Of a stretch of DNA of 64,000 nucleotides, positions 43,191 through 44,440 are shown one piece after another. Both the position numbers and the translations under genes were made by a program. The notes below the pieces were generated by a model that worked only from the letters and a program-made list of their open reading frames with translations, had not been told where the DNA came from and made no database searches. Numbering within the stretch: the first letter of the stretch is position 1; each line of letters begins with the position of its first letter. Source of the DNA: Halopiger djelfimassiliensis (lineage in GTDB: Archaea; Halobacteriota; Halobacteria; Halobacteriales; Natrialbaceae); NCBI RefSeq assembly GCF_000455365.1, contig NZ_HG315685.1, positions 644,461-708,460 on the forward strand. The letters are read 5' to 3'.

Positions 43191-43236
43191 CGCCGCTTGG
43201 GGCTCGATCCGGAACGATGCGAAAACGGTATATTGA

Positions 43237-43252
43237 TTTAGGCCAGCCTAAA
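43237..43252. promoter_or_regulatory. DtxR-type iron operator
   Basis: TTTAGGCCAGCCTAAA is a near-perfect palindrome (arms TTTAGGC/GCCTAAA) directly before the start of the iron-siderophore binding gene (ATG 43256). It matches the TTAGG-N-CCTAA type sites bound by haloarchaeal DtxR-family regulators (Idr/SirR). A TATA-like sequence (ggtatattg, about 43228-43236) lies upstream. Binding here would block transcription when iron is sufficient. Confidence 0.75.
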
Positions 43253-43255
43253 ACC

Positions 43256-44440
43256 ATGGCTAGCAACGCTGTACACCAGGCAGTGCCGACGAGACGCGAC
43301 TATCTCAAAGGCGGCGGAACGGTCGTCGGCGGGGGGTTACTCGCCGGCTGTATCGCCGAGCCGAACGGCTCCGCGGACGACGGGGCGACGACCGGCACCG
43401 GTGGCTCGTACACGGTTTCGATGGCCCCGATGGGTGAGGTCGAGTTCGATTCCGTCCCCGAGAGCGTGTTCACGCGGCTCACCCACCACGCCGGGATGGC
43501 GTTCGCGCTCGGCCGCGGTGAACAGGTCAACGCAATGCACGCCCCGGGGTACTACGACGCGCTCTGGAACCAGTTTACGCCGCGTCTCGACGGGGTGACC
43601 CTCGACTGGAGCGACTGCGAACCCTCGTGGGAGGTGAGCAAGGAACAACTCTACGAACTGGACAGCGACGTCCATCTGGCTGATCCGGCCAGTGTCGCCG
43701 CCCTTGACGGCTGGTCCGAGTCCGACCTCGAGGAGGTCGGTCAGTACCTCGGGCCGTGGTTCGGGAACAAGTTCAGCGACAGACACGAGACGCCACCGTC
43801 CGGGTGGGCCGACGACTACCGGTACTACTCACTGTGGGAACTGTTCGAACGTGTTGCGCGCGTGTTCCGGGAGCAAGATCGCTACCGGACGCTGGCGGCG
43901 ATCCGCGAGCGACTACTCGAGTGGTTCGACGCGGAGTTGCCGGCGGTCGAAGCGCGACCGACGGCGGTGATGCTCGGGCTGAGCGACCTCGACACTATCT
44001 ACGCGTACACGCTCTCTAACCCCGGATTCCTGACGGCACACACGCGCCCGCTCGGGCCGGTCGGTGCGCTCGGTGACGACGTCAAGTCGGGTGCCGTCAT
44101 CGACTTCGAGCGGCTACTGGACGCCGATCCGGACGTCATCTTCGTCCTCGGAGGGCTGCATCCGGAGACGGACATGGTCGACATCCGTACTCGGCTCGAA
44201 GACCACGCCGTGGCCCGGGAGCTATCCGCGGTCCAGAACGGACGCGTATACCCACAGGGCGCACGCTATCAGGGACCGATACTGAACCTCTTCCAGCTCG
44301 AGATGACGGCGAAACAACTGTATCCCGATCGATTCGGCGAGTGGCCGACGTATACGACCGGACCGTACCCCGAGATCCCCGGGGACGAACAGTTGTTCGA
44401 CCGCCAACGGGTCGCCGACTGTATCACGGGGAACGACTGA
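43256..44440 (+). CDS. iron-siderophore ABC transporter substrate-binding lipoprotein
   Basis: A 394-aa periplasmic binding protein of the FecB/BtuF type (PF01497). A Tat signal (RRDYLKGGG, R13-R14) leads to a lipobox LLAGC with C32 as the lipidated residue, so it is exported folded and anchored outside the cell. The segments VPESVFTRLTHHAGM and the later LLDADPDVIFVLGG are typical of the cluster. The start is ATG 43256 just after an iron-type palindrome. The permease and ATPase partners are not adjacent. Confidence 0.87.
   Translation: MASNAVHQAVPTRRDYLKGGGTVVGGGLLAGCIAEPNGSADDGATTGTGGSYTVSMAPMGEVEFDSVPESVFTRLTHHAGMAFALGRGEQVNAMHAPGYYDALWNQFTPRLDGVTLDWSDCEPSWEVSKEQLYELDSDVHLADPASVAALDGWSESDLEEVGQYLGPWFGNKFSDRHETPPSGWADDYRYYSLWELFERVARVFREQDRYRTLAAIRERLLEWFDAELPAVEARPTAVMLGLSDLDTIYAYTLSNPGFLTAHTRPLGPVGALGDDVKSGAVIDFERLLDADPDVIFVLGGLHPETDMVDIRTRLEDHAVARELSAVQNGRVYPQGARYQGPILNLFQLEMTAKQLYPDRFGEWPTYTTGPYPEIPGDEQLFDRQRVADCITGND

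Follow-up and report, generated by a model that had tools for sequence, protein, structure and literature searches.

A solute-binding protein gene with no transporter gene beside it raises two linked questions: what the protein carries, and what switches the gene on. The gene considered here lies at 43256-44440 (plus strand) of a 64-kb stretch of the Halopiger djelfimassiliensis genome (G000:C2:644461-708460, in an assembly of 3.78 Mb and six contigs), hereafter the window. Its 394-aa product is a FhuD-like protein of the Peripla_BP_2 family (PF01497; 41.3 bits against a cut-off of 27.5, E 1.5e-10). A twin-arginine motif (RRDYLK) and a lipobox (LLAGC) near the N-terminus, both read directly from the translation, predict export by the Tat route and a lipid anchor. 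The best PDB match, 4mlz, comes at E 2e-4 under a generic name, and there is no close solved relative; in this family the fold itself does not reveal the substrate. An NCBIfam assignment as F420-0 binding protein stayed below its cut-off (23.3 of 392.4 bits) and was left unused. Around the gene lie SppA, DUF373, diphthamide synthase and DUF7121 genes; the preliminary description rightly remarked on the missing permease, as the three above-cut-off FecCD genes of this genome all lie elsewhere. The gene looks like another stand-alone FhuD, of the kind known in haloarchaea.

The promoter offers a way to answer both questions at once. The preliminary description had placed a 16-bp palindrome between a TATA-like element and the start codon, and it is indeed there: TTTAGGCCAGCCTAAA occupies 43237-43252 (plus strand), and 3 nt separate its end from the ATG at 43256. 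The arms, TTTAGG and CCTAAA, are perfect, the central four bases (CCAG) asymmetrical; with its two TTAGG/CCTAA half-sites and 4-bp spacer, the site is predicted to be an operator of the haloarchaeal DtxR type. Two bases 5' of it stands the TATA-like TATATT (43229-43234, plus strand), preceded by a BRE-like CGAAA (43220-43224, plus strand), and the mRNA is probably leaderless. We take TTTAGGCCAGCCTAAA to be the operator at which a DtxR-family repressor, activated by metal, would silence a gene for a siderophore-binding lipoprotein as long as iron suffices, and give this reading, drawn from sequence comparison, a probability of about 0.87.

One might instead suppose that the palindrome arose by chance, or that it is a piece of a longer reading frame: an in-frame ATG does exist upstream, at 43217, and its use as start would place the operator within coding sequence. 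Such an origin is hardly credible. TTTAGGCCAGCCTAAA is the sole site in the window at up to three mismatches on either strand, where 100 shuffles lead one to expect 0.02, and its promoter position is kept in relatives. In 28 of 29 promoters, this one included, a start codon stands 3-5 nt behind the site; on this account ATG 43256 is preferred as the start and ATG 43217 rejected.

Conservation of the arrangement extends well beyond the start codon. A homologue of the protein was found (E ≤1e-20) in 41 of the 61 family genomes searched, and 30 homologous loci, one per genome and the present one included, were compared. The site, at up to one mismatch, lies upstream of the gene or of a preceding tandem gene in 29 of them; the exception, L045, has a weaker look-alike only. 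Counting back from the site, the preceding 22 nt show two shared elements in the 29 promoters: a BRE, with C at -17 in 25 of them and G at -16 in 24, and a TATA stretch from -9 to -3 that is T-rich from -9 to -6; the window promoter carries its own elements in the same register. A wider set of 80 relatives repeats the pattern: in 57 a site (up to two mismatches) lies no more than 300 nt away and has a start codon 2-6 nt behind it, a site with a start codon at that distance being chosen where several were near. Of the remaining 23, 19 have a site (up to one mismatch) at a greater distance upstream, where tandem genes would place it, and the upstream flank examined held no strong site in four of the 80 (L085, L086, L160 and L164). 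Across the class, the 16-mer is present in 289 of 292 genomes, being absent from G135, G209 and G299; its count does not beat the control in every genome (3 against 4 in G014, 1 against 1 in G296, for example).

The substrate is suggested by the company that the site keeps. A genome-wide search for the palindrome, which the preliminary description had called for, found TTTAGGNNNNCCTAAA at 16 places against none for the reversed control, the 14-mer TTAGGNNNNCCTAA at 21 against 2, and, with one mismatch allowed, 24 against 2; the sites mark genes for iron uptake and siderophore synthesis. Besides the window's own, 13 stretches around genome sites were taken and the adjacent genes scanned for families. 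All five PF01497 paralogues found, the window gene among them, have the site 2-4 nt ahead of the start codon, and the same is true of a FecCD permease gene followed by an ATPase gene (C2:86641); a second FecCD gene follows a site-bearing binding-protein gene at C1:684662, and the third above the cut-off (C3:36937) has no exact site nearby. A pair of sites (C4:210896 and C4:210932) precedes dat and a diaminobutyrate-decarboxylase-like gene (bdb), behind which come genes for an IucA/IucC-FhuF protein, an acetyltransferase, a lysine/ornithine monooxygenase and a second IucA/IucC-FhuF protein. That is, a complete dat-bdb-iucA-iucB-iucD-iucC cluster (G000:C4:202127-210947; L011, L084) follows a pair of perfect operators spaced by 36 bp, in a six-gene order (dat-bdb-iucABDC) also described for Haloferax (PMC7407949). 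The regulon of iron genes and the conserved promoter position in haloarchaea both support the earlier suggestion of a DtxR-family-type iron site at which repression is likely.

The regulon reaches past these genes. Further sites precede genes for an SBP_bac_6 lipoprotein, an ABC ATPase with a TOBE_2 domain, a DUF5059-plastocyanin lipoprotein and a DUF7552/7551-DUF7260 group. Others, a point against the iron reading, have no obvious link to iron: these stand before genes for LPG-synthase-like, RGP, GT2, cupin, ATP-grasp, methyltransferase and macro-domain proteins, a gluconate-2-dehydrogenase subunit with a GMC oxidoreductase, and an HVO_A0261-type regulator. One cluster (L003, G000:C1:774696-785413) brings together the LPG-synthase-like, RGP, SBP_bac_6, GT2 and gluconate-dehydrogenase/GMC genes, with one site each and no evident tie to iron. 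The gene for the lipoprotein with DUF5059 and plastocyanin-like domains (L007:4001-5528, G000:C2:935272-936799) has its site 3 nt before the start, and a DUF5059 gene stands behind an operator pair in another genome as well (L051). The DUF7552/DUF7551/DUF7260 genes (L009:3965-5841, G000:C4:26556-28432) have operators 36 bp apart in the present genome; in others (L047, L048, L049 and L053) the distance is about 20 bp. They are a candidate iron-regulated module.

The pair before the siderophore cluster belongs to a more general pattern. Among the 29 homologous promoters, 24 carry a second palindrome (up to three mismatches) 34-36 bp upstream of the first. Among the 57 promoters of the wider set, 46 carry one at 33-37 bp (distances of 33, 34, 35, 36 and 37 bp occur 8, 7, 3, 26 and 2 times), and none does at control distances of 41-51 bp. 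In paired promoters the BRE and TATA element lie between the two palindromes. A search for pairs made independently of any gene, with spacers of 5-35, found them in 191 of 292 class genomes and in none of the control rows; the details given here for the class-wide searches for motif, pairs and DtxR-type proteins refer to the matches listed. Over the 75 pairs listed, related species included, 63 have a centre distance of 33-37 and 39 a distance of 36. The best gene behind the pair was scanned at 20 of 30 pair loci, the other 10 offering no frames or only short ones: nine are PF01497 genes, three class-III aminotransferases, four DUF7552 or DUF7260, one DUF5059 and one MoeA, and two have no family. 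All four of the DUF7552/DUF7260 loci are spaced near 20. In one genus (g36), frames of 81-85 aa begin 5 nt past the 14-mer of an operator pair (L059, L060, L064, L067 and L069); the two of these five that were scanned, L064 and L067, matched no Pfam family.

The window promoter departs from this pattern. A second operator 33-37 bp from TTTAGGCCAGCCTAAA was sought in the window and is absent: in the place occupied in most relatives (43200-43216, plus strand), the best match has 8 of 12 arm positions wrong. The gene is thus a single-operator member that keeps the downstream copy only, and the same holds for its paralogues, as none of the five binding-protein genes of this genome has a paired site. 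Pairs make up 4 of the 20 site groups in the genome, the siderophore cluster among them. Tentatively, and at slightly less than even odds, one can propose that the unit of the regulon is usually two operators 33-37 bp apart (mostly 36), on which two repressor dimers would clamp the BRE-TATA platform of one promoter on either flank; that the spacing tunes the strength of repression, single-operator genes such as that of the window being repressed more weakly; and that a second class, with a spacing near 20 bp, is used for the DUF7552/DUF7260 module. Of this whole account, only the conserved geometry of two operators might be new. No description of paired operators was found in the literature searched, a body that does not include Leyn and Rodionov 2015, Martinez Pastor 2024 or Schmid 2011, and we do not claim that none is in print.

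Which protein would read the site? The genome encodes two strong, full DtxR-family proteins. One (G000:C5:53724-54416) has three domains, Fe_dep_repress, Fe_dep_repr_C and FeoA, a make-up that it shares with a protein named SirR in Haloferax mediterranei (PMC11218638). The other (G000:C2:927131-927562) has two domains, 144 aa and a Cys-rich tail. The three-domain protein is the best candidate and probably the reader. Aligned to IdeR, whose DNA contacts are taken from PMC10317159, it has Thr, Pro, Thr, Ser and Arg at Ser37, Pro39, Thr40, Gln43 and Arg60; at IdeR positions 10, 79, 83, 98, 102, 105 and 106 it has Asp, His, Glu, His, Asp, Glu and His, a complete set at the metal-ligand positions. 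Positions 83, 98 and 106 of IdeR are metal ligands.

That the two-domain protein reads the operator, or that both proteins share it, seems unlikely, though it has points in its favour. Matches to the two-domain protein occur in all 292 class genomes, 289 of which have the motif, and among the matches listed two genomes with weak three-domain matches (G192, 7e-18; G248, 1.3e-18) still hold 8 and 5 motifs. The converse is found too: again among the matches listed, G228 and G266 have weak two-domain matches (3.0e-17 and 2.6e-21) and keep 6 and 8 motifs. As both types match in 292 of 292 class genomes, co-occurrence with the motif cannot name the reader. The residues of the two-domain protein also count against it: it is without the usual metal ligands, having Q, Y, R, R and S where the three-domain protein has D14, H84, H103, D107 and H111, and the IdeR contacts Pro39/Thr40/Arg60 are altered to Ala/Ser/Lys. 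Near neither regulator gene (L012, L013) is there an autoregulatory site at up to two mismatches.

The three-domain protein, taken as the likelier reader, brings in a question of metal. It has Asp in place of both Met10 and Cys102 of IdeR, the places where MntR proteins have Asp/Asn and Glu (PMC10317159); with MntR-like residues at both, the sequence does not settle its metal, which could be manganese. Its gene (in L012, G000:C5:52503-55709) adjoins one for a ZIP-like transporter, recognized by a sub-cut-off Pfam match, and this neighbour may indicate a role in zinc or manganese as well. That the regulon responds to manganese, or to both metals, instead of iron is nonetheless quite improbable. 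The MntR-like primary site, a best NCBIfam match to MntR (215.8 of 350 bits, below cut-off) and the ZIP-like neighbour speak for it; the targets, which are genes for making and taking up siderophores, and the response of the equivalent Haloferax genes to iron starvation (PMC11349517) speak for iron.

With iron as the presumed signal, the following course of events can be pictured. A single dimer would occupy the TTAGG-N4-CCTAA core, which lies past the TATA box and ahead of the start of the presumably leaderless transcript, and would keep RNA polymerase from joining TBP and TFB at the promoter; the position of the operator fits a repressor that stops polymerase recruitment, as for MDR1, an archaeal metal-dependent repressor whose exclusion of RNA polymerase is reviewed in PMC2995911. 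When iron drops, metal would leave the regulator, the operator would be vacated and the gene transcribed. Low iron would also bring transcription of the genes at the other sites: those for four more binding proteins and for two FecCD permeases with an ATPase, and the siderophore synthesis cluster. The lipoprotein would then probably pass its ferric siderophore on to a FecCD permease used in common. A site that mainly activates, like some in the DtxR family, is very improbable here: IdeR can also activate (PMC10317159), but a dimer bound between TATA element and start codon should block the polymerase, and several related fhu genes go up as iron falls (PMC11349517).

Membership of the regulon gives a binding-protein gene that stands alone its likely function, and the genome search yields, for Halopiger djelfimassiliensis, a list of genes probably under iron control. 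The uncharacterised haloarchaeal families DUF7552, DUF7551, DUF7260 and DUF5059 are now tied to iron. With the conserved two-operator promoters one can test how a repressor in archaea deals with a TATA box flanked by operators, and comparison with one-operator promoters can show whether lack of one operator weakens repression.

Set beside known systems, the window site adds one more ordinary member to a haloarchaeal iron regulon already described. Leyn and Rodionov 2015, as cited in PMC11349517, described a 'ferR regulon signal' before haloarchaeal fhu genes; PMC11349517 itself places that signal before every fhu gene or operon, in a setting of 11 FhuD paralogues and two paralogous permeases, and reports induction of several fhu genes by iron starvation. 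It also cites PMC7407949 for induction under iron limitation. The window site resembles the ferR signal in its position before a fhu gene, a likeness by description and not by the letters of a published logo. The iron network of Haloferax TroR, Halobacterium Idr1-Idr2 and SirR likewise consists of DtxR-family regulators of iron uptake, from the same class of archaea, a likeness at the level of the family; Haloferax has three DtxR-family regulators named, whereas only two strong ones appear in the present genome.

MDR1 of Archaeoglobus fulgidus is a member of the DtxR family. It allows TBP and TFB to bind and excludes RNA polymerase (PMC2995911), and the likeness drawn here is one of mechanism, not of operator sequence. 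With the bacterial IdeR/DtxR box the haloarchaeal operator has the CCTAA repeats in common, and the one-dimer 'half site' with its 4-bp spacer (PMC10317159) is the core found here. The classic 19-bp box holds four such repeats and two dimers (PMC10317159), whereas TTTAGGCCAGCCTAAA has two repeats only; in relatives with paired operators each dimer would occupy a box of its own, at a distance of about 36 bp from the other.
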